Of a DNA stretch of 64,000 bases, positions 4,871 to 59,382 are shown in pieces. A model generated the notes under the pieces. The model was given only the letters and a program-made list of their open reading frames with translations. It was not told the origin of the DNA and searched no databases. Made by a program: the position numbers and the translations under genes. Every line of letters begins with the position of its first letter. Positions within the stretch are counted from its first letter, which is position 1. Source of the DNA: Kiritimatiellaceae bacterium (GTDB lineage: Bacteria > Verrucomicrobiota > Kiritimatiellia > Kiritimatiellales > Tichowtungiaceae); the NCBI GenBank assembly GCA_013141415.1, contig JABFQY010000001.1, positions 310,001-374,000 of the forward strand, written 5' to 3'.

Positions 4871-6661
4871 CTATTCCAGTGAGGTTACCTCGACGGATCG
4901 CATGCCCGTCTGACGGGAGTCACTTCCCAGAACGGCTTCAAGCATCGCCGGACCTTTGGGCAGGTGAATCTTCGGCAGTACAACGATCGTTTCGCCGGCG
5001 GGGATTTTCTGCTGAAGCCTAACATCCGCCAGCGTGAGTTTGGCGGTGGACGGCTGTTTCGTTTTCTCGAAGCGCAGTGTGATCTTGTAATCGCCAGCCC
5101 GCCGGACATCCACCTGCCAATAGCCCGCACCCACCGGCGTCCAGCGCGCGCCCTGCACACGCCAGTCCTGGCGGGTCAGCAGTACATTTTTCTGTTCCGG
5201 CGCGCCGATATAGATACGCGGCGGCACCGTGTAATCTCTGGCTCCGGTGACGTCCTTAAACCAGGCTTCGTAATCGCGCCGCATCTGCATGACGACATCT
5301 GGAGTCGGCGCAGCGATGTTATTCATTTCCAGCGGATCGATTTCACGGTTGTAGAGTTCAAAATCCGATTGTCCGGCTTCCAGACGAAAAGCGCTCTTCG
5401 GCTGTACCAGCTTGTACTGTTGTGAGATCGCGGCACAAGCCCGGTTCATCTCTGGCATGTCGCCGCGATGCCACTGAAAATAGATCGTACGGTCAGGCCA
5501 GTTGGTGGCATTGCCCGTCAGCAAAGGCAGAAGGCTGAGGCCGTCCAGTTTCACGCCTTCCGGTTTTTCCGCACGACACAGATCAAGCAGTGTCGGCAGT
5601 ACATCAATGTGCGCGGTCAGCCGGTCTATGGACTGACCGGCCCGGAAATGTCCCGGCCAGTACGCAAAAAACGGCACGCGGATTCCGCCTTCATGGGTGC
5701 TGTGCTTGAGGTCGAGCTGGCCGCCGTTGTAGCGCATCTGTTCCGGGCCGTTATCGCTCATGAAAATCACAACGGTATTTTCAGCAAGCTTGAGCTGATC
5801 CAGACGGTTCAGCAGACGGCCGATGTTGTCATCCAGGCATTCGACCATTGCGTAAACGCGGGCGGTGGTTTCATGGTCGAATTTCGGAACGGGGTGGCCG
5901 CCGGTCTGCGGAACGCGCAGATCGGCGTCTTTATAGTGCGCATAATATTTTTCCGGCACCTGTAACGGGATGTGCGGCGCATTATAGGGCAGATAGATAA
6001 AGAACGGCTGATCCGTTTTCTTTTCTATGAAAGCAAGCGCCGCGTCGGTGAGGACATCGGTGATGTAGCCCTTCGTTCGAGTCCACTCTCCGTTGTGCTG
6101 AAGCCATGGATCGAAATAAGCGCCGTTGGGGCTGATCTCGAACGGCGCGTCGCCGCCTTGCGCCAGCCCGCCGCCGTTCATGACGAGCGATTCCTGAAAA
6201 CCTTTGTCCATCGCTCTCATCGGGTGGTTGTCACCCAGATGCCACTTACCGAAAATGCCGGTACGGTATCCGGCGGTGCCGAGCATTTGGGCAACGGTTG
6301 TTTCGTCGGGAAACATCATTGAACGCCCGTTGCATGTGTCCACGACGCCGGTACGGTAATAGTAACGTCCGGTCATCAGGCTGGCCCGCGTGGGTGAGCA
6401 GACCGGGTTGACGTGGAACTGCTCGAAACGGACTCCTTCGCGCGCCAGACGATCAATATTCGGTGTGCGGATTTTGGGATTATTGTTGAACCCGATGTCG
6501 CCGAAGCCTTGATCGTCGGTGAGAATCAGGATCACGTTCGGTCGTTCACCACCGGGCGCAACCGGCTTTTCGAGAGGCAGGGAATGTTGTTCCGCTGTCA
6601 CGCTGCCCGCCAGACCAAGACCGAGGATTTTTACAAGGTTAAGGCTTAAGCTAAGTTTCAT
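4871..6661 (-). CDS. Secreted sulfatase (arylsulfatase family, S1 type)
   Basis: Hydrolyses sulfate esters, probably on sulfated polysaccharides or glycoconjugates. After a signal peptide (about residues 1-23, ending SVTA) come the metal-binding ILTDDQG (Asp49, Asp50) and CSPTRASLMTGR. Cys88 in the latter would be converted to formylglycine by a sulfatase-modifying enzyme not seen here. The FMSDNGPE motif lies near residue 300. A C-terminal beta-rich domain after about residue 470 is extra. The ATG at 6661 is preceded by GGAG; an upstream in-frame TTG has no ribosome site. It is third in a likely operon with a secreted esterase and a carbohydrate-binding-like protein, which suggests glycan breakdown. 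Confidence 0.92.
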   Translation of the reverse strand: MKLSLSLNLVKILGLGLAGSVTAEQHSLPLEKPVAPGGERPNVILILTDDQGFGDIGFNNNPKIRTPNIDRLAREGVRFEQFHVNPVCSPTRASLMTGRYYYRTGVVDTCNGRSMMFPDETTVAQMLGTAGYRTGIFGKWHLGDNHPMRAMDKGFQESLVMNGGGLAQGGDAPFEISPNGAYFDPWLQHNGEWTRTKGYITDVLTDAALAFIEKKTDQPFFIYLPYNAPHIPLQVPEKYYAHYKDADLRVPQTGGHPVPKFDHETTARVYAMVECLDDNIGRLLNRLDQLKLAENTVVIFMSDNGPEQMRYNGGQLDLKHSTHEGGIRVPFFAYWPGHFRAGQSIDRLTAHIDVLPTLLDLCRAEKPEGVKLDGLSLLPLLTGNATNWPDRTIYFQWHRGDMPEMNRACAAISQQYKLVQPKSAFRLEAGQSDFELYNREIDPLEMNNIAAPTPDVVMQMRRDYEAWFKDVTGARDYTVPPRIYIGAPEQKNVLLTRQDWRVQGARWTPVGAGYWQVDVRRAGDYKITLRFEKTKQPSTAKLTLADVRLQQKIPAGETIVVLPKIHLPKGPAMLEAVLGSDSRQTGMRSVEVTSLE

Positions 6662-6701
6662 TTTATTCTCCAATACAAGGGTAGAAGTGAATCGTCTTCA
6701 T

Positions 6702-7349
6702 TTAATGGGTTGATGTCGCCGCCGAGCCGGTTTCGGAAATCACAAACGTGATGTCGTCAACGAGGATTTCGCTGTCGGTGTCGTTGACGAGAAAATGGAA
6801 GTTGTAAACGTTATTGCTGGTGACCGGCATGTCGTTTATGACGCACTCGCGCCACACGGAGTCACACTTGCCTGCGCCTTTATTGTGCTGAGGATAGGTC
6901 AAGAATCCCTTGGGAACCATTGTCCACGGGGAATGGTTTAGAAAGGCCTCGAACCGCGCAAAGACCTTTGAGTCAGCGCCATCCGCCCGGCCGCTCCGCA
7001 CCCAGAATTTGATCTGCATTTTGGTCGCACCTAGAGCATAAACGTCAGCGCCGGTTGTCGTAATTGGCGCGATGATCCGGTCGAACTTCGGCTTTACAGC
7101 CCCGACGGTATCGGCCTTGATTCTCATGCATCCGGGGGCGTTGTGTCCGTTTATTTTGTCCCATGTGACAATATTGTTTGTGCTAACAGACCAGTCGTGG
7201 CCGTTATTGAGCAGGAGCATTTTAGTTGTTGTCGTGATGGGCGCAGAAAAGTCGCCATTGTAAATGTAGTTGGTTTGCGCCGACGACACCGAAGCAGAAA
7301 CGCCGAGTGCGAGCATGATCGCGCGAAACGCTTTTCCTGAGAGAGACAT
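6702..7349 (-). CDS. Secreted protein of unknown function, carbohydrate-binding-like
   Basis: A 215-residue exported protein. Residues 1-24 are a signal peptide ending SVSSAQ. The mature part starts NYIYNGDFSAP, a pattern common at the start of family 4/9-type carbohydrate-binding or galactose-binding-like beta-sandwich domains, and ends with LVDDITFVIS, the usual last strand of such domains. No catalytic motif is visible. AGGAGG lies just before the ATG on the minus strand (7355-7360) and fixes this start over one 78 bases upstream. It lies 28 bases before the sulfatase. The binding role is inferred from pattern and context. Confidence 0.6.
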   Translation of the reverse strand: MSLSGKAFRAIMLALGVSASVSSAQTNYIYNGDFSAPITTTTKMLLLNNGHDWSVSTNNIVTWDKINGHNAPGCMRIKADTVGAVKPKFDRIIAPITTTGADVYALGATKMQIKFWVRSGRADGADSKVFARFEAFLNHSPWTMVPKGFLTYPQHNKGAGKCDSVWRECVINDMPVTSNNVYNFHFLVNDTDSEILVDDITFVISETGSAATSTH

Positions 7350-7423
7350 AAAAACCTCCTGTTTGCAGAGAATGATGTAACCCCGATTCCGGTGTCGTTT
7401 GTACAGCGGCCGGATAGGGCGGG

Positions 7424-8269
7424 TCAAGGACGTCGTGTTGCGACCGGCTCACCCGCCAGCTTCAGGATATATTCGCGCAGCAGCTTTTGCTCCGATGGCG
7501 GGAACGCATGGCCGGTGCCGGGCATTTCATGAGTGACCACTTTTTGAGATAACGCTGAAAGCTCCGCCGCCTTTTTCTGAAACTGATTAATGAATTCCTG
7601 CCGCCAATCCTGCCGGTCGTCGCCCCATGCCATATAGTAGGTCGCGTCTGCCGGAGCAATGACCGGATCGATTTCATCGCCGCCTTCAATGAGGAAAAAA
7701 TTCCTGAAATACTTCAGGAGCCCGTCGCGGGTTTCCGGATGGCTCAACAGGGCGGCGGTGGTATTCGCCCCGTTGGAAAAACCGCCGATAAAACACCGGC
7801 GCGGGTCGGCATTCGGAATCATCTCAAAAGCCGCCGCAAGCAGTACCTTATACTGGGCCCAGATAAACCCGGCTTCCGACGGAGCAATGTACATACGCGA
7901 CCACTTGTTCGATCCGTTCTCAGCCAACGGGTCAAGGTGTTCCAGAAAAAGCGGCAGACTGATGCAGATGAAATCCCGGTCGCCGAAAATTCTGCGGACG
8001 GGTTGCGCTGAGAGTCCGCTGTGGCCTTGTGATCCGCCCATGAACAGGACAACCGGATAACTTTTGGTCGCATCGTAATCCAGCGGAAAAGAAACGGACA
8101 CCGCGGGCGGCTCGTCAATTCCTCGTATTTTTTTAAACAGCGTGTCCGGCAGTTCCGGAAACGTTTTTGTCTTCTCTATTCCTTGGAACGGCAACTCTTC
8201 GCCGGATACCGCCTGTGAAAACATGAAAACAAACAGCACAGCACCCAACGATCTAACAAGCGTCTGCAT
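7424..8269 (-). CDS. Secreted alpha/beta-hydrolase (esterase-like)
   Basis: A 281-residue exported hydrolase. Residues 1-23 form a signal peptide. The fold is marked by VVLFMGGSQGHSG (oxyanion region, residues 73-85), the nucleophile elbow GGFSNGAN with Ser165, and the likely catalytic His in GTGHAFPP near residue 258. It resembles the PHB-depolymerase/feruloyl-esterase type, but the substrate is not readable. It is first in the group esterase, carbohydrate-binding-like protein, sulfatase, which suggests removal of ester groups from a polysaccharide. Confidence 0.75.
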   Translation of the reverse strand: MQTLVRSLGAVLFVFMFSQAVSGEELPFQGIEKTKTFPELPDTLFKKIRGIDEPPAVSVSFPLDYDATKSYPVVLFMGGSQGHSGLSAQPVRRIFGDRDFICISLPLFLEHLDPLAENGSNKWSRMYIAPSEAGFIWAQYKVLLAAAFEMIPNADPRRCFIGGFSNGANTTAALLSHPETRDGLLKYFRNFFLIEGGDEIDPVIAPADATYYMAWGDDRQDWRQEFINQFQKKAAELSALSQKVVTHEMPGTGHAFPPSEQKLLREYILKLAGEPVATRRP

Positions 8270-8418
8270 AGGTTCCGCCCCTTCATCTCAGAATCGGTGA
8301 ATCATTAATCCGCGGAGCTGGTTTCTTCAAGGTCGCAGAACATGTATTCCTGATGACCATCTATGAACCGGCTGTCGCCTCGGCTATGCCGAAGATGATT
8401 TATTGGAGCGGGGAGCTT

Positions 8419-8480
8419 TTCTCGCAAAGGCGCAAAGACGCCAGGAAACTCTGCGGTCTCTGAATCTCTGCGAGGGTGAA
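8419..8480. repeat. Palindromic intergenic repeat, CTCGCAAAGGCGCAAAG type
   Basis: Lies in the 222-base gap between the YchJ-like gene and the esterase gene. The element starts TTCTCGCAAAGGCGCAAAG and ends CTCTGCGAGGGTGAA, so its ends are imperfectly inverted (CTCGCA/TGCGAG). Similar units recur between genes in many bacterial genomes. No promoter or small gene is evident in the rest of this gap. Confidence 0.5.
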
Positions 8481-8491
8481 ATTTTGGAAAA

Positions 8492-8887
8492 TTACTGAAT
8501 GGCTTCGGCGTAATACCAGATGCCGCGGACTTTCTTGAACAGCGAGCGCTCGTGGTGGCGGTCGGCACCGCGCGGGCCGATAAACTCGGCGATGAATTCA
8601 ACCGTGCCTTCGTTATCGGAACGTCCGCCGGCTCCAACCTGGAGCACATGCAGTTTCTGCCACGTCACCTGACCGATCCAGTCCCGGATTGATTCCGCCA
8701 GATCGGGTTCGCGCGACGCGGGCAGGGCGGTCTTCACCAGATAATCGACATTCTTCAAAACGTAGGCGGTATAGCGCGAACGCATCAGCGCCTCCGCCGT
8801 CGGTGCGCTTTGTTTTCCGGAAAGCCACTGCCCGCAACAGCCCTGAAAATTTTTCCCGCTCCCGCACGGGCATTCGATTATCTCCAT
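8492..8887 (-). CDS. ychJ: YchJ-like SEC-C motif protein
   Basis: A 131-residue protein of the YchJ (UPF0225) type. The N-terminus holds a zinc-binding SEC-C motif (CPCGSGKNFQGCCG, residues 6-19). It is followed by the conserved LMRSRYTAYVLKNVDYL segment and a central NTF2-like part (VEFIAEF). The family's biochemical role is unknown. It is 46 bases downstream of the AT-rich membrane protein gene on the same strand. The ATG at 8887 starts immediately before the SEC-C motif, as in other family members. Confidence 0.85.
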   Translation of the reverse strand: MEIIECPCGSGKNFQGCCGQWLSGKQSAPTAEALMRSRYTAYVLKNVDYLVKTALPASREPDLAESIRDWIGQVTWQKLHVLQVGAGGRSDNEGTVEFIAEFIGPRGADRHHERSLFKKVRGIWYYAEAIQ

Positions 8888-8933
8888 AGCAGATCCAAAT
8901 TTACTAGATTACGGGACTGACTTTTTTGCCTGA

Positions 8934-9584
8934 TTAAAATCCGTACATGGCAATATTGATAGCTAGTGAAATAAGCGTTACAAGCTCCATGGCAAAAACA
9001 AAAATAAAAACCGAACAGATTCTATAGCGGCCAATAAAAATCGGACCGCTATTTTTTGCATAGTACAAACTGGTAATAAGTATCCAGATGAGAATGAAGA
9101 TGCTCGTAAAAGCGATTCCTCCCGTTCTAACACCCTCGCTTTCTTCCAGTTTAATCCACAGAGGTGTAAATAACGGCGTCCACACTGCTGATGCGATGAT
9201 GATCCAAAAAATCTCTTTTCGTCGTGAATGGGGTTTTGAGGTTCTCCACGGTGGTTCCAGTTCGGCTTTTTTGATTTCGGCAACTAAATCTAGGTATTTA
9301 TCGCACACGGCTTTTTTGGGAGCGTACTTGCCGGTGAGTAGATTGAAAGACAAGATATCTAATGCTTGTTGAAAGGCCATTCTTCTTTTTTCAAGGCGCT
9401 TGTTCTCAAAATGAAAATCAACCGATCTCCACTTTTCAAGCCACGTTATTAGTGGCGTTGGGAATTCATCGTTTAAGCAAGAAGACTCTTCGTACAAATA
9501 CTGGATGTGCGCTGATTTAACAGGGAGTTCATCCAGTAAAGCTACAGTTAAGTCTATATCCCGCTGGCTGACGTAATTTTTCAT
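8934..9584 (-). CDS. Membrane protein of unknown function (AT-rich gene)
   Basis: A 216-residue protein not recognised. Residues 1-120 are soluble, charged and mostly helical. Three hydrophobic segments follow: FWIIIASAVWTPLF, AFTSIFILIWILITSLY and ICSVFIFVFAMELVTLISLA, so the N-terminal part probably lies in the cytoplasm. The gene starts 15 bases after alaS. Its base composition is clearly AT-richer than both neighbours, with AAA/AAT/ATA-rich codons, which suggests later acquisition. No catalytic motif is visible. Confidence 0.6.
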   Translation of the reverse strand: MKNYVSQRDIDLTVALLDELPVKSAHIQYLYEESSCLNDEFPTPLITWLEKWRSVDFHFENKRLEKRRMAFQQALDILSFNLLTGKYAPKKAVCDKYLDLVAEIKKAELEPPWRTSKPHSRRKEIFWIIIASAVWTPLFTPLWIKLEESEGVRTGGIAFTSIFILIWILITSLYYAKNSGPIFIGRYRICSVFIFVFAMELVTLISLAINIAMYGF

Positions 9585-9599
9585 TTGCGGTTTAAGCGA

Positions 9600-12335
9600 C
9601 TAGATCGATTTCCCTGCACTATCCAGAGCCTCCGCCAGTTTTTCGGGCAGTTTGCCGCCAGCCTGGGCGCGGTCGGGTTTGCCGCCGCCGCCGCCGCCGC
9701 ACTGCTTGGCAATCGCGCCGACGATTTTTCCGGCGTTCTTTCCGGCTTTGACTAAATCCGGTGTGACGGCGCAAACCAAAGCGACTTTACCGTCGGAAAC
9801 TCCGCCGAGGATGACGACGGCACTGGTGAGTTTCGGCTGAAGCGCGTCCATGACGGCGCTGAGCAATTCGGCGTCGGCTTCGCCCATGTTTTCGATGAGC
9901 AATCCGTCTTTGATTTTGCCGAGCAGTTCTTCCGCAATCGCCGGAGCCTTCGCTTGCATTTCGGCCTGTCTTTGCTTGGCGAGCTGTTTCTGGCGTTCCA
10001 CTTCTTTGGTGCGTTCCGCTTCAGCGGCGCCGGCGGCCTTTTGCTCTTCGATAAACTGTTTGGCGAATTTTCCGCAGACGGCTTCGATACGGCGGATACC
10101 GGCGGCGATGGCCGATTCGCGCATGACTTTGAAGAGACCGATGTCGCCGGTGTTGCGGACGTGACAGCCACCGCACAGTTCCATCGAGAAACCGTCGAAC
10201 TTACCTTTGTGTCCGCCCATCTGGAGAACGCGGACGGTGTCGCCGTATTTTTCGCCGAAGAACTGCTGGATGCTGGGTTGTTTCTGTACTTCGGTGAACG
10301 GAACTTCGGTCCAGTAAACCGGCTCGTTGGCTTTAATCCGGTCGTTGACCAGCTTTTCGATTTTGGCGATCTGTTCGTCGGAAATTTTTTCCGGCGAGTT
10401 GAAGTCGAAGCGCATCCGTTCCGGCGCGACGAGCGAGCCGCGCTGGCGGGATTCTTTACTGACGACGTTGTGCAGCGCCCAGTGGAAAAGGTGGGTGGCG
10501 GTGTGGTGGCGCTGAATATCGGCGCGGCGCTCCGCATCGACGTCAACGAGCACGCCTTCGCCCGGCTCCGGCGCGCGGCCGGAAACCAGCTTGGCGCGGT
10601 GGACGATCAGTTCGCCCTGTTTTTGCGTATCGAGAATCTGCAATTCGCCGATCAGATTTTCGTCGGCGATGAGCCGGATTCTACCGGTGTCGCCGGACTG
10701 TCCGCCCATTTCGGCGTAGCACGGAGTTTTGTCCAAGATGATGTTATATTCTGTAGCCGCGATCCCTGATCGCGGACCGAGGTCACGGACCTCGGCTACA
10801 GAAGAACCGCGATCAGGGATCGCGGCTACAACTGGGGAGATCGCTTCAACCAGCGCTTCGGCTTCGAGGTTATCGAAACCGATGAAGACGGTCGGGTTCA
10901 CTTCGAGACCTTCGCTCTCGACGGTGACGACGGTTTTCTTTTTGGCGTGGTCGGCGCGGGCGCGGTTGCGCTGTTCTTCCATCAGTTTTTCAAAACCGGG
11001 GACATCGACGGTCAGGCCGCGTTCGCGGGCCAGCAGTTCGGTGAGATCGAGCGGGAAACCGTAGGTGTCGTAAAGCCGGAAGGCTTCGTTGGCCGGGAAA
11101 ACTGTAGTCGCGATCCCTGATCGCGGACCGAGGTCGCGGACCTCGGCTACAGAAGAAAGGGTTGAAACAACCTGCTCGAACAGGTCGAGGCCGCGGTCGA
11201 GGGTGCGGTTGAAGGATTCTTCTTCGGCTTTGAGGGTTTTCTGAACGCGGTCCGCATTTTTGCGCAGTTCGGGGAAGGCGTCGCCGAAGCTGTCGGCGAC
11301 GGTGTCGGCGAGTTTGTAGAAGAAGGGCTCGCGGAAACCGAGGGCGCGACCGTAGCGGACGGCGCGGCGCAAGATGCGGCGCAGAACGTAGCCGCGGCCT
11401 TCGTTCGACGGCGCGATGCCGTCGGCGATGGAAAAGCTGAGACAGCGGATGTGGTCGGCGATAACGCGGAAGGCGATGTCGGTCGGATCGGTGAGCGAAC
11501 TGCCGTATTTTTTGCCGCTCATGTTTTCCAGAGCTTGGAAGATCGGTGTGAAGACATCGGTTTCATAGTTGGAGATGACGCCGGAGAAATCCTTGAAGCC
11601 TTTGGTGCACTGGATGACGGAACAGGCGCGCTCGAAGCCCATACCGGTGTCAACGTGTTTGGCCGGGAGCGGCGAGAAGGTTCCGTCGGGGTTGGCGTTA
11701 AACTGGATGAAGACGAGGTTCCATATTTCCATGCATTGCGCGGAACCGGCGTTGACCATCTTTGCGCCGCCGTCGCCTTTCGGGGAAAGGTCAACGTGCA
11801 GTTCGGAGCACGGGCCGCACGGGCCGGTATCGCCCATCATCCAGAAGTTGTCTTTGCGGTTGCCGGGGACGACGTGGTCGGCCGGGAGATATTTCAGCCA
11901 GAAGTTCTGCGCTTCGGTGTCGGCGGGCATTTTGTCGTCGCCGCCGAAGTAGGTGGCGTAGAGGCGCTCTTTCGGGAAGCCCCAGACTTTGGTGATCAGT
12001 TCCCACGCCCAGTCGATAGCTTCTTTTTTGAAGTAGTCGCCGAAGGACCAGTTGCCGAGCATTTCAAAAAAGGTGTGGTGGTAGGTGTCGAGGCCGACGT
12101 CGTCGAGGTCGTTATGCTTGCCACCGGCGCGGATGCACTTCTGGGTGTCGGCGGCGCGGCCCGGCGAGTAGGGGCAGTTCGACTGGCCGAGGAAGATCGG
12201 CACGAACTGGTTCATTCCGGCGTTGGTGAACAGCAAGTTCGGGGAGTCGGGCAGCAGGCTGCCGGATTTGACGAGGGTGTGCTGTTTCGATTGGAAGAAA
12301 TCGAGGAACGACTGGCGGATTTCGTTAGAAGTCAT
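9600..12335 (-). CDS. alaS: Alanine-tRNA ligase with two repeat-derived insertions
   Basis: Charges tRNA-Ala. The 911-residue protein has the class II catalytic domain (motif 1 region TNAGMNQFVPIFLG, then GDTGPCGPCSE), the tRNA-recognition helices, the editing domain (HTATHLFHWALH and CGGCHVRNTGDIG zinc-site motifs) and the glycine-rich C-Ala end (CGGGGGGKPDRAQAGG). Two palindromic repeats are inserted in frame. One (about residues 393-411) precedes AFRLYDTYGFPLDLT, and one (about 502-528) precedes the start of the editing domain at ILDKTPCYAEMGGQSGD. Both add the sequence SSVAEVRDLGPRSGIA. They fall in positions where family members have variable loops, so the enzyme is probably functional. 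It is divergent from the purF-like gene. Confidence 0.96.
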   Translation of the reverse strand: MTSNEIRQSFLDFFQSKQHTLVKSGSLLPDSPNLLFTNAGMNQFVPIFLGQSNCPYSPGRAADTQKCIRAGGKHNDLDDVGLDTYHHTFFEMLGNWSFGDYFKKEAIDWAWELITKVWGFPKERLYATYFGGDDKMPADTEAQNFWLKYLPADHVVPGNRKDNFWMMGDTGPCGPCSELHVDLSPKGDGGAKMVNAGSAQCMEIWNLVFIQFNANPDGTFSPLPAKHVDTGMGFERACSVIQCTKGFKDFSGVISNYETDVFTPIFQALENMSGKKYGSSLTDPTDIAFRVIADHIRCLSFSIADGIAPSNEGRGYVLRRILRRAVRYGRALGFREPFFYKLADTVADSFGDAFPELRKNADRVQKTLKAEEESFNRTLDRGLDLFEQVVSTLSSVAEVRDLGPRSGIATTVFPANEAFRLYDTYGFPLDLTELLARERGLTVDVPGFEKLMEEQRNRARADHAKKKTVVTVESEGLEVNPTVFIGFDNLEAEALVEAISPVVAAIPDRGSSVAEVRDLGPRSGIAATEYNIILDKTPCYAEMGGQSGDTGRIRLIADENLIGELQILDTQKQGELIVHRAKLVSGRAPEPGEGVLVDVDAERRADIQRHHTATHLFHWALHNVVSKESRQRGSLVAPERMRFDFNSPEKISDEQIAKIEKLVNDRIKANEPVYWTEVPFTEVQKQPSIQQFFGEKYGDTVRVLQMGGHKGKFDGFSMELCGGCHVRNTGDIGLFKVMRESAIAAGIRRIEAVCGKFAKQFIEEQKAAGAAEAERTKEVERQKQLAKQRQAEMQAKAPAIAEELLGKIKDGLLIENMGEADAELLSAVMDALQPKLTSAVVILGGVSDGKVALVCAVTPDLVKAGKNAGKIVGAIAKQCGGGGGGKPDRAQAGGKLPEKLAEALDSAGKSI
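10752..10830. repeat. In-frame palindromic repeat inside alaS, copy 1
   Basis: A 79-base element within the coding sequence. The outer arms are exact 24-base inverted repeats, 10752-10775 and 10807-10830, beginning TGTAGCCGCGATC and ending GATCGCGGCTACA. Between them sits a second hairpin, CCGAGGTC/GGACCTCGG, followed by CTACAGAAGAA. The first 55 bases match copy 2 at 11103-11157 with two differences. It is read without a stop in the alaS frame. Confidence 0.9.
11103..11157. repeat. In-frame palindromic repeat inside alaS, copy 2
   Basis: A 55-base element with hairpins CGCGATC/GATCGCG and CCGAGGTC/GACCTCGG, beginning TGTAG and ending CTACAGAAGAA. It matches 10752-10806 at 53 of 55 positions, in the same orientation and the same reading frame. 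It encodes SSVAEVRDLGPRSGIATT in the AlaS protein, between the tRNA-recognition helices and the conserved AFRLYDTYG motif. Confidence 0.9.
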
Positions 12336-12529
12336 GGGGCAACTCTCAGTTATAAGTTATCAGTGCTAAGCGGGCCGAAAATCTACCACGAACCGCCCCG
12401 ATTTCACGGATTTTTTTTGACTGTTTGGGGAAGGGCGCGGATGTTCGGTTAGATTTCCGTTTGACCGGGGCGGGGCCGGATGCAAGGATGTGCGCTCAAT
12501 CTTATCCGGAACCAAGGAGTGTATGGGAT

Positions 12530-14425
12530 ATGAGTGACTGGATTGGCCATGAATGCGGCATCGCCGCGATCCGGCTCTTGAAGCCGTTCGAATATTACGT
12601 CGAAAAGTACGGTTCACCCGCTTTCGCCATTAACCGCCTGTATCTGCTGATGGAAAAGCAGCATAACCGCGGGCAGGACGGTGCTGGCGCGGCGGTCATC
12701 AAGTTGGATGTCGAGCCGGGCAAGCCGTTTATCTTCCGTTCGCGTTCCGCAGACAAAGACCCGATTGCGCGGGTTCATCAGGAAATGCTGGCGGCGCTGG
12801 CGGAATCGCAGGCCGAAAATCCGGCGAACGCAAACGATCCGGTCTGGCTGAAGCGCAACGCGAAGTTTGCCGGCGAACTGCTGCTGGGCCATCTGCGTTA
12901 CGGCACACGCGGCCGCGGCGGCATTGATTTCTGTCATCCGTTCCTGCGGCCGAGCAACTGGCGCAGCCGCAATCTGGTGCTGGCGGGTAATTTTAATCTG
13001 ACCAACAACGATGAACTTTTTGACGCGCTGGTCGAGTTGGGTCAGCATCCGATCGATGAAACCGATACGGTGATGGTGCTGGAAAAGATCGGCCATTTCC
13101 TCGACGAAGAGAACGACCGTCTTTTTCGTGAGTTCCGCAAGGAAGGTGTGGAGCGCTCGGCGATTTCAGAAAAAATTTCCGATCATCTCGATTTGGTAAC
13201 CGTGCTGAAGCGGGCCGTGAAGAATTTTGACGGCGGCTACACGATGGCGGGTATTATCGGTAACGGCGATCTGTTTGTCATGCGCGACGCCTGCGGTATC
13301 CGCCCCGGATTTTTCTACCACGACGATGAGTTTGTGGTGGTGGCTTCTGAGCGACCGGCCATTCAAACGGCGTTTGATGTGCCGATTGACGCGGTTCAGG
13401 AAATCAAACCGGGTCATGCGCTGATTGTCCGTAGAAACGGCGAGGTGCTGCATGAACCGATTTCAGACGTGCAGGAAATCCGGCCGTGTTCCTTTGAGCG
13501 GATTTATTTTTCGCGCGGAACCGACCGCGACATTTACGGCGAGCGCAAACAGCTGGGCCGCCAGCTGACCGAGCCGGTTCTGAAGGCGGTGGACTATGAT
13601 CTCGATAACACCGTGTTCTCCTACATTCCGAACACGGCCGACGCCGCATTTTACGGTTTGATGGAAGGGGCGAAAGCCTACGTCGCCGACCGGGCAAAAT
13701 ATCACATTCTGCATGAACGGAACCTGACCGCCGAGCGAATCGCCGAGCTGGTGAATTATCAGCCGCGCATGGAAAAGATCATGACGAAGGACGCCAAGCT
13801 GCGCACCTTTATCACCGCTGACGCCGACCGGCGCGATCTGGTTTCGCTGGTGTATGACACGACCTACGGCGTGGTCAAAAAAACCGACACGCTGGTGATC
13901 CTCGACGATTCGATTGTGCGCGGCACGACGCTCCGCGAGAGTATCTTGCGGATTCTTGACCGGCTGAATCCGAAGAAAATCGTTATCGTTTCCTCGGCTC
14001 CGGAAATCCGCTATCCGGACTGCTACGGCATCGATATGTCGAAGCTGAAGGATTTCGTTGCGTTTCAGGCGGCCGTCGCGCTGGTGAAGGAAACCGGACG
14101 CGATACGATCCTGAAGAATATCTATGACGCCTGTAAAGCGAGCCTCGAACTGCCGCGCGATCAGGTTCAGAACGAAGTGCAGGCGCTTTACAAACTCTTC
14201 AAACCGAATGAAGTGGAGAAAAAAATCGCGGCGATTCTGCGACCGTCCGACCTCAAGGCTGAGTTTCAGGTGATCTACCAGAGCATCGAAGGATTGCACG
14301 CCGCCTGTCCGAAGCATAAGGGCGACTGGTATTTTACCGGCGACTATCCCACGCCCGGCGGCAATCGCGTCGTCAACCGCTCGTTTGTCAACTTCATGGA
14401 AAACAGCGACGCGAGGGCTTACTGA
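12530..14425 (+). CDS. purF: Amidophosphoribosyltransferase-type protein (PurF family)
   Basis: Catalyses the first step of purine synthesis, PRPP plus glutamine to phosphoribosylamine. The N-terminal glutaminase domain begins HECGIAAIR, where Cys9 would be the nucleophile after removal of an eight-residue propeptide. RYGTRGRGG and the [12 protein letters not shown] segment follow. The C-terminal phosphoribosyltransferase domain holds the PRPP motif [16 protein letters not shown] near residue 460. At 631 residues it is longer than E. coli PurF (505), with insertions in the glutaminase part and an extended C-terminus. AAGGAG at 12513-12518 supports the ATG at 12530 rather than an upstream one. 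Confidence 0.85.
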
Positions 14426-14427
14426 TA

Positions 14428-16335
<1,908 letters not shown>

Positions 16336-16347
16336 GTTTTAAAGTGT

Positions 16348-16476
16348 GGACGCGACGCCCTCGTCGCGTTTCTCATTCATTTACATGCGACGAGGGCGTC
16401 GCATCTACGTTGTGACCAGCGGCAAAGATGCCGCTTCCACATTCCGAGGCCGTCGGCCTCGGCTACAGAAGAAAAT
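16348..16476. repeat. Cluster of three hairpin repeats in the glgB-amtB gap
   Basis: Fills the first part of the 400-base gap between glgB and amtB. Unit 1 has exact 16-base inverted arms, 16352-16367 and 16387-16402 (GCGACGCCCTCGTCGC). Unit 2 is AGCGGCA/TGCCGCT at 16418-16435. Unit 3 is CCGAGGCC/GGCCTCGG at 16444-16462, followed by CTACAGAAGAA. That last string also ends both repeats inside alaS, so unit 3 is a relative of them. It may also act as a transcription stop after glgB. Confidence 0.7.
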
Positions 16477-16660
16477 ACAAAACTGGCGGCGGGACAAATT
16501 TCGGCGCGGACGGACCAGATTTGTCTGATTTGTTCACCAAAAAATACAGGCGTGTAACATTGGTCAGTTCTGGCGGCGCGACGGATCGTTGCAGAAAATA
16601 ATTCTAATCCATTCACCTCCAGCATCTAAGACCGCGGTGTTGCGGCGGCATTTTTGGCTG

Positions 16661-16677
16661 GGGCATAGATCGTGCTT
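16661..16677 (+). promoter_or_regulatory. Possible sigma-54 promoter of amtB-glnK
   Basis: GGGCATAGATCGTGCTT has the sigma-54 spacing: GG at 16662-16663 and GC at 16674-16675, ten bases apart, with CA after GG and T before and after GC. The match to TGGCACG-N4-TTGCW is partial. A start near 16687 would leave a leader of about 50 bases before amtB. Sigma-54 control of amtB-glnK is well known in other bacteria. Confidence 0.45.
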
Positions 16678-16735
16678 TTCTCGGGTCTTTACTTTTCACG
16701 GAAAAATTGACGCTGACAAACGGAGGAAAACAAAG

Positions 16736-18010
16736 ATGTGGTTTAGAAAAAGATGGAGTCTGTTCTTACTTACGGTTTTGTCGGTCGGTGCCGCGCAGGC
16801 GGCGGAAAGCGCACCGAGCGAACTGGCGCAATCTTCCAATACGCTGTTCATTCTGATCGGCGCAGTGATGATTCTGGCGATGCACGGCGGGTTCGCCTTC
16901 CTGGAGGTCGGTTCGGTGCGCCGGAAAAACCAGGTGAACGCGCTCAATAAGATCATCTGCGAGTGGGGCTTCTCGACCATCGTCTATTTCTTGATCGGCT
17001 ATCCGATTGCACGCGGCGTTTCCTTTCTGGTTCCGGTTGAAGTGTTGACGGTTGATCACGGTTTCGCCTATGTGAAGTTTTTCCTGCTGCTCGGTTTTGC
17101 GGCCTGCGTTCCGGCGATTATTTCCGGCGGCGTGGCGGAACGTTCCAAGTTCTGGACGAACTCGCTGGCGGGCGGAATTTTTGTCGGTCTGGTTTATCCG
17201 CTGGTCGAAGGTTCGCTGTGGGGTCAGTTCTCGAATACGCTGGCGGGAGCTACCGGCTGGCTGGCGACAACCTTCGGCGCGCCGTTCCATGATTATGCCG
17301 GTTCCGTGGTGGTACACGCCGTCGGCGGCTGGCTGGCACTCCCGGCGATTATGCTGCTCGGTGCGCGGCTGAAGCGCTACGAAACCAATTCGATCAAAGT
17401 CAGCAGTATTCCGTTCCTCGCGCTGGGAAGCTGGACGCTGATCGTCGGCTGGTTCGGCTTTAATGTGATGAGCGCCGGTTCGGTCGAAGCCATTTCCGGT
17501 CTGGTGGCAATCAATTCACTGATGGCGATGGTCGGCGGCACGATGGCGGCGATGTTTATTTCCAAGAACGACGCCGGTTTCGTGCATAACGGCGCACTGG
17601 CCGGACTGGTGGCGGTCTGCGCCGGTTCGGATATTTATCATCCGGTGAGTGCGCTGGTTGTCGGCGCGATGGCCGGCGCGATTTTTGTTTTCCTGTTCGA
17701 AACCGAAACGGTCAAGTGGAAGATCGACGACGTACTCGGCGTCTGGCCGCTGCACGGTGTCTGCGGCGCATGGGGCGGGATCGCCGCCGGTATTTTCGGC
17801 CAGAAGGCGCTCGGCGGAGTCGGTGGCGTTTCGTTCTTCTCTCAGCTGATTGTGACACTGGCGGTGATTCTATTCTGTCTGGCCGCCAGCACCATCGTGT
17901 ACGGTCTGATGAAAATTACCGTCGGCATCCGGCTGAATCCGCACGAAGAACTGATCGGCTCCGATCTCGCGGTACACCGGATTGAAGCACATCCTGAAGA
18001 CGCGCTCTAA
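16736..18010 (+). CDS. amtB: Ammonium transporter
   Basis: An inner-membrane channel for NH4+/NH3 uptake. The 424-residue product has a cleavable signal peptide (residues 1-21, ending AQAA), then eleven predicted membrane segments typical of AmtB. Conserved stretches include [15 protein letters not shown], the twin-His pore regions [18 protein letters not shown] and [19 protein letters not shown], and NAL-type loops. GGAGG at 16722-16726 sits 9 bases before the ATG, so a start 147 bases upstream is rejected. It lies 20 bases before a P-II gene, the classical amtB-glnK pair. Confidence 0.95.
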
Positions 18011-18030
18011 ACCTGAAAGGAACTTTTGCC

Positions 18031-18372
18031 ATGAAAATGATTATTGCCATTATCCAGCCTGAAAAACTCGAAGACGTTAAAGCGGCGCTGTTCAACGCTG
18101 AGGTGCATAAAATGACCGTCAGCCGCGTGCGCGGCTGCGGCCAGCAGATGGGGTTTACCGAGCACTACCGCGGGCAGGTTCGCTCCGTTAACCTGATCGA
18201 AAAGGTGCGGCTGGAAATCGCCGTGAATGACGATTTCGTCGATCTCACCATCAAGACGATTATCAAAGCGGCCAAGAGCGGTAAAATCGGCGACGGCAAA
18301 ATTTTTGTCATGCCGCTGGAACAGTGCATCCGCATCCGCACCGATGAAACCGGTTCGGAAGCGATTGGTTAA
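18031..18372 (+). CDS. glnK: P-II nitrogen regulatory protein lacking Tyr51
   Basis: P-II trimers bind ATP/ADP and 2-oxoglutarate and plug the AmtB channel. The 113-residue protein has the usual length and the signatures [11 protein letters not shown] and [11 protein letters not shown]-like [16 protein letters not shown]. In the T-loop Tyr46 is present (HYRG), but the position of the uridylylated Tyr51 of enterobacterial GlnB/GlnK is Arg (QVRSVN). Classical GlnD uridylylation is therefore not expected. It follows amtB by 20 bases, so direct control of that transporter is the likely role. A hairpin with a T-run follows the stop. Confidence 0.93.
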
Positions 18373-18377
18373 GATGA

Positions 18378-18473
18378 TTTGGAGTGCTCCGGCAAACGAA
18401 TAGTGCGACGGAGCTTTTTGCCGAAAGTTTGTGAAAAAGCGGCCTCGCGCTCCGCTTGCGTCCGCACTCCAAA
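18378..18473. repeat. TTTGGAGTGC inverted repeat element with terminator-like hairpin
   Basis: A 96-base element bounded by exact 10-base inverted ends, TTTGGAGTGC at 18378-18387 and GCACTCCAAA at 18464-18473. Inside, GCTCCG (18386-18391) pairs with CGGAGC (18409-18414) and is followed by TTTTT, so it probably also terminates amtB-glnK transcription. It occupies most of the gap before serC. Confidence 0.65.
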
Positions 18474-18556
18474 GAGAATTTCAACATTCCGTTTGCCCGC
18501 GCGGGGCTCGCCGTGCTAGATGTCTTCCGTCGTTTTTAACCGAAAGGAATGTCAAT

Positions 18557-19639
18557 ATGGCGCGTGCGTATAATTTCAGTGCGGGGCCGGCAATTCTGCC
18601 GACCGAAGTTCTTCTCGAAGCTCAACGGGATCTGCTGGATTTCAAAGGAACCGGCATGTCCATTATGGAGATGAGTCACCGCGGCAAGGAATACACCGCT
18701 GTGCACGAAGAGGCTGTCGCCAATCTTAAGACGCTGCTGAACGTTCCGGACAATTACAGCATTCTATTCATGACCGGCGGCGCAACCAGCCAGTTTTCTT
18801 TTATTCCGATGAATCTGCTCGGTGCCGGACAGAGCGCCGACTACATCAATGCCGGCTCGTGGGGCGCAGGAGCGGTCAAGGCCGCCAAGAAGCTCGGCAA
18901 AGTCAACGTGATTGCCGACACCTCGAAAGAAATTCCGACCCGTATGCCGGCCAACAGCGAACTGAAGTTCACTGATGGCGCCGCATACGTTCACATCACG
19001 TCCAACGAAACCATCGCCGGAACGCAGGTTAAGGAATTTCCGAAAACCAAAGCGCCGCTGATCGCCGATATGTCGTCCGACATTCTTTCGCGTCCGATCG
19101 ACGTTTCGCAGTTCGGCCTCATCTACGCCGGTGCGCAGAAAAACCTTGCTCCGGCGGGTGTGACGCTGGTCATCATCCGTAACGACCTGGCTGAACTTGC
19201 ACCGAAAGAAACGCTGCCGGAACTGTTTCAGTATCGCGCCTTCATCGAAGAAAACTCGCTCAAGAACACGCCGCCGACGTTCCCGATCTACATCATCATG
19301 CTGGTCACCCGCTGGCTGATCGCGCAGGGCGGACTCGAAGGAATGCAGAAGATCAACGACGCCAAAGCGGCCAAGCTCTATGCCGCGATTGACGCTTCAA
19401 GCTTCTACAAAGGCACTGCGGTGAAGGAATACCGTTCGCCGATGAACGTCACCTTCCGTCTGCCGACCGAAGAGCTGGAAGAAGCCTTTATCAAAGCGGC
19501 GTCCAAGCTGGGAATGACCAGCCTCAAAGGTCACCGTTCCGTCGGCGGCGTTCGCGCCTCGATCTACAATGCTTTCCCGACCGAAGGTGTCGATGCGCTG
19601 GTTGCCTTCATGAAGGATTTCGAAGCCAAGAATAGCTAA
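18557..19639 (+). CDS. serC: Phosphoserine aminotransferase
   Basis: Makes 3-phosphoserine from 3-phosphohydroxypyruvate and glutamate in serine synthesis, and also acts in pyridoxal phosphate synthesis. The 360-residue product has the N-terminal YNFSAGPAILP, MTGGATSQF and the PLP-lysine segment YAGAQKNLAPAGVTLVI. The C-terminus has KGHRSVGGVRASIYNA, typical of SerC. The ATG at 18557 follows AAAGGAAT; longer versions from 18431 would run through the repeat element. A rho-independent terminator follows. Confidence 0.95.
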   Translation: MARAYNFSAGPAILPTEVLLEAQRDLLDFKGTGMSIMEMSHRGKEYTAVHEEAVANLKTLLNVPDNYSILFMTGGATSQFSFIPMNLLGAGQSADYINAGSWGAGAVKAAKKLGKVNVIADTSKEIPTRMPANSELKFTDGAAYVHITSNETIAGTQVKEFPKTKAPLIADMSSDILSRPIDVSQFGLIYAGAQKNLAPAGVTLVIIRNDLAELAPKETLPELFQYRAFIEENSLKNTPPTFPIYIIMLVTRWLIAQGGLEGMQKINDAKAAKLYAAIDASSFYKGTAVKEYRSPMNVTFRLPTEELEEAFIKAASKLGMTSLKGHRSVGGVRASIYNAFPTEGVDALVAFMKDFEAKNS

Positions 19640-19660
19640 GCCTGATTCCGGCTCGACCGA

Positions 19661-19700
19661 AAATCCGCCACCGCGTTCGCGTGGTTGCGGATTTTTTATT
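19661..19700 (+). terminator. Rho-independent terminator after serC
   Basis: AAATCCGCCACCGCG pairs with CGCGTGGTTGCGGATTT across a two-base loop with a small bulge, followed directly by TTTTTATTT. It begins 21 bases after the serC stop. Confidence 0.75.
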
Positions 19701-19794
19701 TGGAGCATGTAGCAATTTAAGCGACGCATCCAGCGACCCCGCCTTTGCCGGAAGCATCGTGTGGGCCGCCTTCTCCAATAATGAGGCCGTCTTT

Positions 19795-19865
19795 GGCAAG
19801 GCATGTAGTCCCGCCTTCAGGCGGCATGACCTGCTCCGGCTAAAGCCGGTACTACATACCTTGCC
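19795..19865. repeat. Palindromic repeat with TGTAGT/ACTACA ends
   Basis: Lies in the 307-base gap between serC and the MFS gene. The outer arms GGCAAGGCATGTAGT and ACTACATACCTTGCC are inverted with one mismatch. Inside are hairpins CCGCCTTCAGGCGG and CCGGCTAAAGCCGG. The TGTAG...CTACA termini match those of the repeats inside alaS, nadE and lplA, though the core differs. The rest of the gap holds the serC terminator and nothing else recognisable. Confidence 0.65.
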
Positions 19866-19946
19866 ATGAAAAAGGGACTCCCGCTGACTTTTTACCGAAT
19901 ATCCAACGTAAATGGCGTGAGCACTAGTTCCGGCTGTACCGGCATT

Positions 19947-21153
19947 TCAATCGCGAAAAGCTACAGCAGTTTTGACAGGAATGCGGATCTGTAGCGCGGA
20001 GACCAGATTGACGCAGGCCACGGCGGCGCCGATCAGAAAAACGTATTGGTAGCCGAATTTCTGCCAGATGCATCCGCACAGGATGGCGGTCGAAATAGAA
20101 AATATATGGTCGATGCTGGTCGAGGCCGACAGCGCGGGCATGATGTGATCCGGTGAGAGCGCGATTTTTTTCAGGTACGTGGCGCGGGCCATGCCGACGG
20201 ACATCAAAAGCTGGTCGGCGATATAGCATCCGCCGGTGACGAGCAGGGCGATGGACGTGGAGAACAGTTTTCCGGCGAAGCCGTAAAGCAAACAGACGCC
20301 GATCAGCACCAGCGCTTCACCGGCCAGCACAAACCGTTCGCCTCGGGTGTCGATCAGCCGTCCGAGCATTGGCTGGAGAATGATTCCGAGAATTCCGCCG
20401 ATGGTCATCAGGATGGCGATGTTCTGCACCGGCTGGGCGAATACTTTAACCAGCACCCACGGCGCGAAGGTGAGGAAGATTTGTTTGCGGGTTCCGTAGA
20501 GAATGGAGAGCCAGTAAAACAGCCGGTATTTTTTATGAAGCTTCAGATGCATCGACGGCGGATGCGGGCGGCTGGCTTTCATCCGGTAGAGCATGATCGC
20601 TCCGCAGAGAAATCCCGCCGAGGCCGTCAGGAAAGCGTATGAAAAGTTGAGGTGCAGCCAGTGAAATCCGGCGAAGACGAAGAAGGCGCCGCCGATCGCG
20701 CAGAAATTACGGATGGCGTTGATTTGGCCGAGCCGCCGTCCGTCCTGTCCTTCGCGGGCCAGCTCCATACCGATGCCGGACTGAAGCGGAATCATCAGGT
20801 GCTGGCCGGTGCTGTAAATAAAGAGGCAGGCCAGAGCGATGATCAGCGAATTTGAACTGAAGGCGATCAGTGTCAGTCCGACGGAGCACAGCGCCAGTGC
20901 GAAGGCCGCCAGCCGACGATTGCACAGAAAAAAATAGCAGGGCGGAGAAGAACATCACCAGCAGGCCTGGCGTTTCGCGCGGGATTTCAATCAGCGTCCG
21001 GGTCAGACTGCTGATGGTGAACGTTTCGTTCAGGAAGTTATTAAAGACGGCTTCCACGATACTGCCGGAAAAGCTGGCGATGGCAATGGCCCCCAGAAAT
21101 CGGCGGACATCGCCGCTGGTGCTTGCAAAACGCTGTTTCAAACGCCTGATCAT
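19947..21153 (-). pseudogene. MFS transporter with a frameshift at a run of seven T
   Basis: Two adjoining frames together encode about 401 residues of a major-facilitator transporter. The first runs from the ATG at 21153 (RRFLGAIAIASFSGSIVEAVFNNF, first membrane helices) to a T7 run at 20934-20928 on the minus strand. Skipping one T there joins exactly to the second frame, which continues CNRRLAAFALALCSVGLTLI and then GIGMELAREGQDGRRLGQINAIRNF and runs to the stop at 19947. The cause could be a true mutation, a sequencing or assembly error in the homopolymer, or slippage that makes a full protein. Substrate unknown. It starts 34 bases downstream of tRNA-Arg. Confidence 0.75.
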
Positions 21154-21186
21154 AGTGAGTCTCTGCGCTTCGCTTCGAGCGAAGGC

Positions 21187-21261
21187 TGGTGCACCTGCCG
21201 GGAGTCGAACCCAGATCACCGGCTTCGGAGGCCAGTGTTCTATCCATTGAACTACAGGTGC
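21187..21261 (-). tRNA. tRNA-Arg (anticodon CCG), CCA encoded
   Basis: Reading the minus strand, the acceptor GCACCTG (21261-21255) pairs with CAGGTGC (21197-21191), followed by the discriminator A and an encoded CCA. The D-arm GTTCAATGGATAGAAC, anticodon stem CTGGC/GCCGG with loop CTCCGAA (anticodon CCG), and T-arm GGGTTCGACTCCC are all present. It reads the CGG codon. No integrase or repeat of its 3' end is seen, so there is no sign of use as an attachment site. Confidence 0.95.
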
Positions 21262-21388
21262 GTTCAAAAAGAGTGTTATCTGTTAGCGGTTAATGCCTGC
21301 GGAGAAAAGCCAAAACATTTTAAATCTGTTTTGAAATATAAGCGGCAACCCGCATAATGCGCCCGTTAAACCAAAAGGAGAACGAACC

Positions 21389-21961
21389 ATGGAACTCAGA
21401 GGAAGCCAAACCGAGAAGAACCTGATGGCCGCATTCGCCGGCGAATCGCAGGCCCGCAACCGTTACACCTATTACGCCAGCGCAGCCAAAAAGGAAGGCT
21501 ACGTTCAGATCGCCGATATTTTTGAAGAAACCGCCAATCAGGAAAAAGAACATGCCAAACGTCTGTTTGGACTGATGCAGGGCGGCGAAATTTCGATCGC
21601 CGGATGTTTTCCGGCCGGACCTGTTGGAACAACCGTTGACAATCTGCTGGCCGCCGCCGCAGGCGAAGAGCACGAATGGACCGATATGTATCCGTCCTTC
21701 GCCAAAATCGCCAAAGAAGAAGGCTTCGTTTTGATCTCCGCTGTGTTCAGCGCCATAGCTGTCGCTGAAAAGCAGCACGATAAGCGCTACCGTGAACTCG
21801 CCGCCAACATCAAAGCGGGCAAGGTGTTTGAACGCGGAGAAAAGGTTGTATGGCGCTGCCGCAACTGCGGCTATCTGCATACCGGCAATAAGGCTCCTGT
21901 CAAATGCGCCGCCTGCGACCATCCCCAGGCTCACTTTGAACTGCTCGGCGAAAACTGGTAA
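21389..21961 (+). CDS. rbr: Rubrerythrin
   Basis: A cytoplasmic peroxide-reducing diiron protein, common in anaerobes. The 190-residue product has the ferritin-like four-helix domain, with metal ligands in FAGESQARNRYTYY, FEETANQEKEHAKR and AAAGEEHEW...AEKQHDKRY. A C-terminal rubredoxin domain (CRNCGY and CAACDHP) follows from residue 155. AAGGAG precedes the ATG, and a strong terminator follows. It suggests an anaerobic or microaerobic lifestyle with peroxide stress. It is transcribed alone, next to an iron-regulation locus. Confidence 0.95.
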   Translation: MELRGSQTEKNLMAAFAGESQARNRYTYYASAAKKEGYVQIADIFEETANQEKEHAKRLFGLMQGGEISIAGCFPAGPVGTTVDNLLAAAAGEEHEWTDMYPSFAKIAKEEGFVLISAVFSAIAVAEKQHDKRYRELAANIKAGKVFERGEKVVWRCRNCGYLHTGNKAPVKCAACDHPQAHFELLGENW

Positions 21962-21979
21962 GCGGGTTTTGTCTGTGTA

Positions 21980-22021
21980 AATGCGGAGTTTCCAAATATT
22001 GGAAGCTCCGCATTCTTTTTT
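21980..22021 (+). terminator. Rho-independent terminator after rubrerythrin
   Basis: A near-perfect stem, AATGCGGAGTTTCCAA with TTGGAAGCTCCGCATT, closes on an ATA loop and is followed by CTTTTTT. It lies between the convergent rubrerythrin and dtxR-like genes. Confidence 0.9.
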
Positions 22022-22040
22022 CCGATGTTTGGAAGGCAGG

Positions 22041-22520
22041 TTATTCGGCGAGATTGCATTTTTCGCAGGCGATCTGGCCGGATCCTTGAGCTTTGCAGAA
22101 ATAGCCCTTGGTTTTTCCCTGCCAGACTGCGCCGCTGTTCGGGCAGCGTTCGACAAATTCTGCGAAACCGATAAAACGCTCTAACACATGGTCGGGAATC
22201 GCGTGTTCCATCTGGCAGGCAAACTCTTCGGCTTCTTCGCGCGGGATATCCAGCACATTGGCGAAAAAGTTCAGAAGCGCCTTGTGTTTTCCGGCAATTT
22301 TTTTCGCGGCCCGGTTGCCGGACGGTGTCAGCGTGACGATGTCGTACGGGGTGTAATTAATCAGCTCTTTTTCAGCCAGCTGGCGGAGGGCTCCCGTTAC
22401 CGAAGCGGCTTTCACATTCAGCCGGTCGGCAATGTCCTTGGGCCGTGCGGCGCCTTTTTCTCCGGCAACGGTCAGGATGGCTTCCAGATAATCTTCAAGG
22501 CTGGCGCTGAGTTTTTCCAT
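22041..22520 (-). CDS. DtxR/MntR-family metal-dependent transcriptional repressor
   Basis: A 159-residue iron- or manganese-sensing repressor. Residues 1-65 are the winged helix-turn-helix (SLEDYLEAILTVA, then RPKDIADRLNVKAASVTGALRQL). Residues 70-130 form the dimerisation and metal-binding domain with the family segment EEAEEFACQMEHAIPDHVLERF, supplying Cys, Glu and His ligands. A C-terminal extension holds CPNSG and CEKC cysteines, as in the FeoA-associated iron repressors of anaerobes. It is divergent from the outer-membrane protein-feoBAC genes, so these are the likely targets. The ATG at 22520 matches family N-termini; 12 upstream residues look spurious. Confidence 0.88.
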   Translation of the reverse strand: MEKLSASLEDYLEAILTVAGEKGAARPKDIADRLNVKAASVTGALRQLAEKELINYTPYDIVTLTPSGNRAAKKIAGKHKALLNFFANVLDIPREEAEEFACQMEHAIPDHVLERFIGFAEFVERCPNSGAVWQGKTKGYFCKAQGSGQIACEKCNLAE

Positions 22521-22590
22521 GCCGCAAAGCCTAGCAGGCTTCCTTCTGTTTCCCAAGAGCCGGAGCGCTGTTTTTTTGGACAGAAACGGA

Positions 22591-22618
22591 TTGACTAAAA
22601 GTTAGGCCAAGCTAAATT
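22591..22618 (+). promoter_or_regulatory. Candidate promoter overlapped by a DtxR-like operator
   Basis: TTGACT (-35, 22591-22596) and TAAATT (-10, 22613-22618) are 16 bases apart, ahead of the outer-membrane protein-feoBAC genes. The imperfect palindrome TTAGGCCAAGCTAA (22602-22615), with TTAG/CTAA arms like those of DtxR-family boxes, covers the spacer and part of the -10. Metal-loaded repressor bound here would block transcription. This is inferred from sequence only. Confidence 0.5.
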
Positions 22619-22648
22619 GTTTCGCTTTGGCAAAATAAGGGGGCGTCG

Positions 22649-23416
22649 ATGACTTGCAGCGGATTGCGTTGGAGAAAGGGTTTGGCTGGGCTGGTGCTGG
22701 CGGCGGGGCTGGATGTTCAGGCCGGTGCGCGTAGTTTTGCTTATAACTATGAGACCACAGTGATGCCTAAAGGGGTGTGGGAATATGAGCAGCACCTGAA
22801 TTGGAAGACTCACAAGCATGATACGGACAGCTCGTTTGACCGGCTGGATATCCGGCACGAGATCGAATACGGGCTGACAGATCGTCTGCAGACAGCGCTA
22901 TACTTCGACTGGCGCTATCAGGACGGCGAATCAGTTGAGCGGGATCGTGCGCGGTTTCGCGATGTGGCCTGGGAGACAATTTATCAGCTGACCGATCCCG
23001 ATCAGGAGGCTTTCGGCAGTGCGTTGTACGGGGAAGTTAAGCTGGGCGACGAAATTATCGAAACGGAGGGCAAGCTGCTGTTGCAAAAAAACATCGGTGA
23101 CTGGGCGCTGGTCTGGAACGGTTCCGTCGCCGCGAAATGGGAAAGCAAAGGCTATGATGAGAAGAAGGGTGAGGTGGGGCAGACCGTTGGCGCCTCATAT
23201 CGCCTTTGTGATCGTCTCTCTCTTGGCGTAGAGGCTGTGCATGAGCTGGAGATCGGAAATTGGGAGCAGGCCGGTCGTAATGTCGTTTATGCCGGACCAT
23301 CTCTGTCTGTTCAGGCGTTGGGCGGATATTTCACCGTCAGCCAGCTGGCGCAGGTTTCAGATGTCCAGGACGAAGCGGATTATCAAACCCGTTTAATCGC
23401 CGCGTTTCTTTTCTAA
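22649..23416 (+). CDS. Predicted outer-membrane beta-barrel protein in the iron locus
   Basis: A 255-residue exported protein with a signal peptide (about residues 1-26, LAGLVLAAGLDVQA). The mature chain is a run of alternating beta-strands with aromatic girdles (WEYEQHLNWKTHK, LQTALYFDWRYQD, GSVAAKWESKGY) and ends LIAAFLF. A terminal Phe is the usual signal for BAM-assembled barrels. Function is not recognised. Its position directly behind the DtxR-like operator and 64 bases before feoB suggests a role in passage or handling of Fe(II) or another metal at the outer membrane. Confidence 0.65.
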   Translation: MTCSGLRWRKGLAGLVLAAGLDVQAGARSFAYNYETTVMPKGVWEYEQHLNWKTHKHDTDSSFDRLDIRHEIEYGLTDRLQTALYFDWRYQDGESVERDRARFRDVAWETIYQLTDPDQEAFGSALYGEVKLGDEIIETEGKLLLQKNIGDWALVWNGSVAAKWESKGYDEKKGEVGQTVGASYRLCDRLSLGVEAVHELEIGNWEQAGRNVVYAGPSLSVQALGGYFTVSQLAQVSDVQDEADYQTRLIAAFLF

Positions 23417-23480
23417 CGGATTATTGTACCGTTATTTCATGAACCTGACGGGTTTAGTCTTATCTCTGAATTGAGGCGGA

Positions 23481-59349: not shown

Positions 59350-59382
59350 CCGAAGCGCCGGGGAGCTGGTAGTTTTCGGCCC

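Follow-up and report, generated by a model that had tools for sequence, protein, structure and literature searches.

How an essential tRNA synthetase came to carry the same repeat twice within its reading frame is the question raised by alaS in the 64,000-nucleotide stretch of DNA analysed here (the window). The gene (9600–12335, minus strand) encodes an alanyl-tRNA synthetase of 911 residues, identified by Pfam matches to tRNA-synt_2c (1e-188), tRNA_SAD and DHHA1 and by Foldseek matches to solved AlaRS structures. Within its 911-codon open reading frame, positions 10752–10806 and 11103–11157 agree at 53 of 55 bases and are read in the same frame, both coding for the peptide SSVAEVRDLGPRSGIA; the first is extended by an exact 24-nt inverted arm (10807–10830 versus 10752–10775). 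These features, and the placement of the insertions in loops before conserved motifs, had been claimed in an initial annotation and are borne out by sequence comparison, many relatives having alignment gaps directly ahead of AFRLYDTYG and ILDKTPCYAEMGGQ. The copy on the 10752 side of the window is the downstream one in the protein and is referred to here as site 2, the other as site 1.

Chance is excluded as the origin of the repeats. The terminal motif CTCGGCTACAGAAGAA has three exact matches in the window, and four when up to three mismatches are allowed, against 0.35 expected. The genome has 21 copies of the motif CCTCGGCTACA, compared with 2 of its reversed control.

Structure of the alaS repeats

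The repeats are REPINs, doublets of inverted REP hairpins of the GTAG type, and each is a pair of inverted hairpins as opposed to a single palindrome. The 49-nt unit consists of TGTAG, an 8-bp hairpin, one base, a second 8-bp hairpin with the other stem, and CTACA. At site 2, REP 1 (10752–10775, plus strand) comprises TGTAG and the stem CCGCGATC/GATCGCGG around the loop CCT (E 3e-5 in its own genome), and the inverted REP 2 (10777–10800, minus strand) comprises the stem CCGAGGTC/GACCTCGG and CTACA (E 1e-5), the fold being a three-way junction. A third REP (10807–10830, minus strand), the exact inverse of REP 1, lies behind the linker GAAGAA. At site 1, REP 1 (11103–11126, plus strand) has TGTAG and TCGCGATC/GATCGCGG, one changed base shortening this first hairpin to 7 bp, and the inverted REP 2 (11128–11151, minus strand) again has CCGAGGTC/GACCTCGG and CTACA. 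As single-stranded DNA, the doublet is predicted to fold into a three-way junction closed by TGTAG/CTACA (−19 kcal/mol, z −5.6; z −3.9 for the other copy). The 79-nt site-2 element with its third arm folds at −41.9 kcal/mol (z −13.7), giving a range of folding z-scores for the alaS elements from −3.9 to −13.7. One of the three frames on each strand of the REPIN is free of stops (two of six frames open).

The site-2 insert (10752–10830, minus strand) codes for VVAAIPDRGSSVAEVRDLGPRSGIAAT and the site-1 insert (11103–11157, minus strand) for SSVAEVRDLGPRSGIAT. An AlphaFold model from 47 AlaS sequences, which followed one from 9 sequences that reached pLDDT 54, has a mean pLDDT of 86.6 and matches solved AlaRS structures. 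Values below 50 are confined to residues 399–407, 462–475 and 505–524; the first and third of these segments are the REPIN-encoded stretches, the site-1 loop following a long helix and the site-2 loop lying between two β-strands. AlaS has, then, two tolerant loops, one before AF(R/K)LYDTYG and one before ILDKTPCY.

The REP family and its probable transposase

A covariance model of the single REP, searched against the 2.2-Mb genome, yielded 49 clusters, with at least 72 matches at E up to 1. A few of the weakest matches are doubtful, and the count may be low because 150 of 1228 candidates were scored. Stems vary among the copies while base pairing is kept, and the two stems used in alaS are the commonest in the genome. 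Most clusters are not in recognised genes. A genome search for intragenic copies had been suggested in the initial annotation; eight Pfam-matched proteins contain nine of the 49 clusters in frame, and the others were judged by open frames. The eight are AlaS (twice), a U32 peptidase, an FAD-dependent oxidoreductase, a family A DNA polymerase, a GHMP kinase, a fused type I methylase/specificity protein, a lipoate-protein ligase and a TatD DNase, and the peptides coded by the in-frame REPs vary with frame and stem. Outside alaS, the window holds a lone REP of the same family with a CCGAGGCC stem (16444–16467, minus strand) and a related REPIN with GACAGGC stems (60006–60054, plus strand), which lies in frame in the lipoate-protein ligase reading frame (59350–60240), past the catalytic domain. 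An Rfam scan of positions 5000–25000 at gathering level returned a tRNA and nothing else.

RAYTs are REP-associated transposases of the HUH tyrosine type. The genome encodes such enzymes, and one, at C3:579723–580121, is flanked by REPs with the two stem types of the alaS REPINs. A 160-residue protein at L115:4064–4546 scores 104 bits against a cut-off of 80 for NCBIfam NF047646. Its start is overlapped by a CCGCGATC REP and its stop is followed by a CCGAGGTC REP, so the flanking stems are both of the stem types found in the alaS REPINs. We infer that this RAYT moved the alaS copies. The family unites a GTAG tag beside a short GC-rich hairpin, inverted REPs that fold together, many dispersed copies and a RAYT flanked by REPs, the marks of GTAG REPs and of REPINs. 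Additional RAYT-like genes occur in the source genome and in relatives; in one congener (G013, genome 94% complete) REP elements are present but no RAYT scored above the cut-off.

Two matches were set aside. The cluster at C7:81357, counted among the 49, is native lysS-like sequence, judged by eye to be a chance match, and a match in an arginyl-tRNA synthetase-like frame, from a motif search of the genome, also looks like chance. The type I methylase/specificity fusion (L128, element at 5567–5591) has a linker with tandem REP-like peptides, NVGRVPPRGV then DVGRVPPRGV, between its two domains. Separately, G008, G012 and G007 (L260, L258 and L265) carry in-frame GTGG REPs at one common position, after MLNLMK, of a large reading frame with a Y1 transposase-like domain; in the G012 copy the repeat is read in a different frame.

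Occupants of the AlaS loops in relatives

AlaS was searched in 40 relatives, the source genome being designated G000. The alignment, likewise put forward in the initial annotation, revealed different REP families, GTAG and GTGG, in the same loops. GTAG REPINs occupy both loops in G013 (same genus, AlaS 91% identical), and GTGG-tagged REPINs occupy both in three congeners, G007, G008 and G012, in which GTGG units resembling those of AlaS are found again elsewhere. In G009, G010 and G006, of the same genus, AlaS is without such an insert. Across the wider order, GTAG REPINs were found at site 1 only in G033 and G017 and at site 2 in G027, with junctions some codons off in all three; of 346 genomes from the class, three have an exact GTAG end at site 1. 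The site-2 junctions are common to G000 and G013, and the stems there differ, partly in a compensated way. A distant member of the Verrucomicrobiota, a Methylacidiphilales MAG (L140), has two CGTC-tagged repeats in its site-1 loop, which by eye correspond to the other REP superfamily of PMC3733652.

Among the relatives there was no close empty site with the exact junction, and net lengths relative to empty relatives differ from 49 nt; flanking bases have therefore changed too. Long unrelated inserts fill the site-1 loop of G016, G001 and G003, and hence this loop accepts insertions generally. Perfect REP-type hairpins of at least 8 bp, sought in 30 AlaS genes, are confined to the two sites; the remaining hairpins are of other sequence, several being the TTCCAA palindrome described below. 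The TatD loop after GIHPWFV shows a turnover of occupants resembling that of the AlaS loops: it is empty in G008, G009, G006 and G012, is filled by one type of REPIN in G000 and G004, and by a second type in G013, G005 and G007. The picture at the U32 peptidase loop is less distinct than at the AlaS or TatD loops, because unrelated short inserts also vary there.

On an AlaS tree built without the insert columns, G008, with its GTGG inserts, groups with the GTAG-bearing G000 and G013. A single clade of GTGG-bearing AlaS is rejected (p-AU 1.3e-5, for a clade named after the tree had been seen, on a tree with some weak inner branches), and the minimum number of state changes is six at site 1 and five at site 2. 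Different repeat families occupy the same loops of related species, from which it follows that mobile DNA rewrote the same parts of AlaS several times. Such rewriting might also come about, as the chief alternative, if each loop had received one ancestral insertion, the slot then being inherited and its contents overwritten in each lineage by gene conversion with the local REP family. The G000 copies, differing at 2 of 55 positions and carrying the genome's two commonest stems, would fit this course, as would the site-2 junctions shared by G000 and G013 despite their differing stems and the position of G008 beside these two. It is nevertheless doubtful, if a genuine possibility: the junctions in G033, G017 and G027 are displaced by some codons, several intervening lineages are empty, and the GTAG and GTGG families share so little sequence that conversion between them is hard to picture.

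Origin of the inserts and known systems

We consider it highly probable that the alaS repeats are RAYT-mobilised GTAG REPINs, sieved by frame and tolerance, in loops that were colonised repeatedly. The RAYT of the same genome would presumably mobilise non-autonomous REP doublets as single-stranded DNA. Insertion would probably be broad, genic copies surviving only where the frame is kept and the added residues are tolerated by the protein. Over the history of the order, different REP families would have settled in the two tolerant AlaS loops again and again, the colonist being whichever family the genome carried at the time. We infer that the inserts arose by new insertion, not by conversion of a resident copy, and that they are neutral. 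The initial annotation had proposed that selection keeps the frame and the loop position, which is best read as survivorship and reuse of tolerant loops; the coded peptide itself is not what is kept, since loop occupants change between species.

The same annotation had likened the repeat to Rickettsia palindromic elements. Its view of a repeat of this genome invading proteins in frame is supported, such entry having taken place repeatedly and at disordered loops; the likeness of kind is not supported. Those elements are the classical precedent for in-frame palindromic repeats in unrelated proteins, of which there are eight here, but they are about 150 bp long and belong to another lineage (PMC10969869), as against 49-nt GTAG REP doublets in a RAYT-bearing genome. 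That the present repeats are protein-invading elements of this sort, spread for and by their coding capacity, is very unlikely given the size and structure of the GTAG REPIN, the position of most of the 49 clusters outside recognised genes and the variation of the coded peptides with frame and stem, even though several proteins hold them in frame. Retention of the hairpins for a function in alaS, such as slowing ribosomes or tuning mRNA stability, would account for the recurrence of strong hairpins at both positions in several species; it is improbable, however, as many close relatives have neither insert and the site-1 loop of G001, G003 and G016 holds unrelated long ones. An assembly artefact might be suspected in a draft genome of 7 contigs (95.5% complete), but inserts occupy the same loops in the separate assemblies of G013, G007, G008, G012 and G033, leaving this a negligible prospect. 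Beyond repeated colonisation by RAYT-mobilised REPINs, we suggest tentatively, with somewhat less than even confidence, that tolerant loops of essential enzymes are standing landing sites, refilled or overwritten repeatedly by the current REP population. If so, intragenic REPINs would be live members of a mobile population, and the sequence of the AlaS and TatD loops would be set by the RAYT/REP family of the species, not by descent.

The kind of insertion is already known, since in-frame GTAG REPs, dimers, double inserts, GTGG variants and a shared site were reported in 2013 (Di Nocera 2013, PMC3733652). As described in that paper, intragenic REPs of Opitutus terrae (Verrucomicrobia) and others are, as here, GTAG hairpins with stems mostly of 6–9 bp, often dimers and in frame; they encode 20–30 residues, uvrA has a double insert, and GTGG variants exist. 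The paper also places tRNA synthetases among the targets in other species and records that recB of two Xanthomonas species carries different REPs at nearly the same site. Its main text does not name AlaS, and the paper gives no account of the same two loops being reoccupied, across an order, by families of the GTAG, GTGG and, more distantly, CGTC type. What the present comparison of sequences adds is that different REP families have reoccupied the same loops, a point tested on a tree. Among the papers searched, none combined a palindromic element, alanyl-tRNA synthetase and insertion, and none dealt with REPs in Kiritimatiellae. The REPINs of Pseudomonas fluorescens are likewise inverted REP doublets that act as the replicative unit and are predicted to adopt a joint fold in single-stranded DNA or RNA (Bertels and Rainey 2011, PMC3116915); those, however, were studied in extragenic space and number over a thousand REPs, whereas the source genome has about 49 clusters, of which nine lie in frame in proteins, with a spacer down to 1 nt. 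The AlaS loops offer a natural series in which the positions stay constant, in an enzyme that is essential and has been studied well: empty, GTAG-filled, GTGG-filled or filled by another insert. The series lends itself to three questions: are intragenic REPs fossils or still live, how frequently do new protein loops come from bacterial mobile DNA, and is it RAYTs or selection that chooses the targets?

Other repeats were also seen. A further REPIN-like doublet with short stems (TGTAGTCCCGCC...GGTACTACA) lies at 19804–19856 and is absent from the matches of the main model. Positions 55699–55777 and 61918–61996 form a 79-nt inverted repeat, 84% complementary, 6.1 kb apart and with the ends TTGTAGGAC and GTCCTACAA, which is perhaps a longer REP-like element. 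The palindrome TTCCAANNNTTGGAA occurs once exactly in the window (21990–22004), with seven near matches. Its genome-wide count is 71 here and 379 in G013 and reaches 1177 among the relatives, compared with 0–3 for the reversed control. It appears to be a motif in its own right, repeated very many times, and it is also found in coding sequence, where it is read as FQxLE, for example at AlaS residues 265–271 of several relatives.
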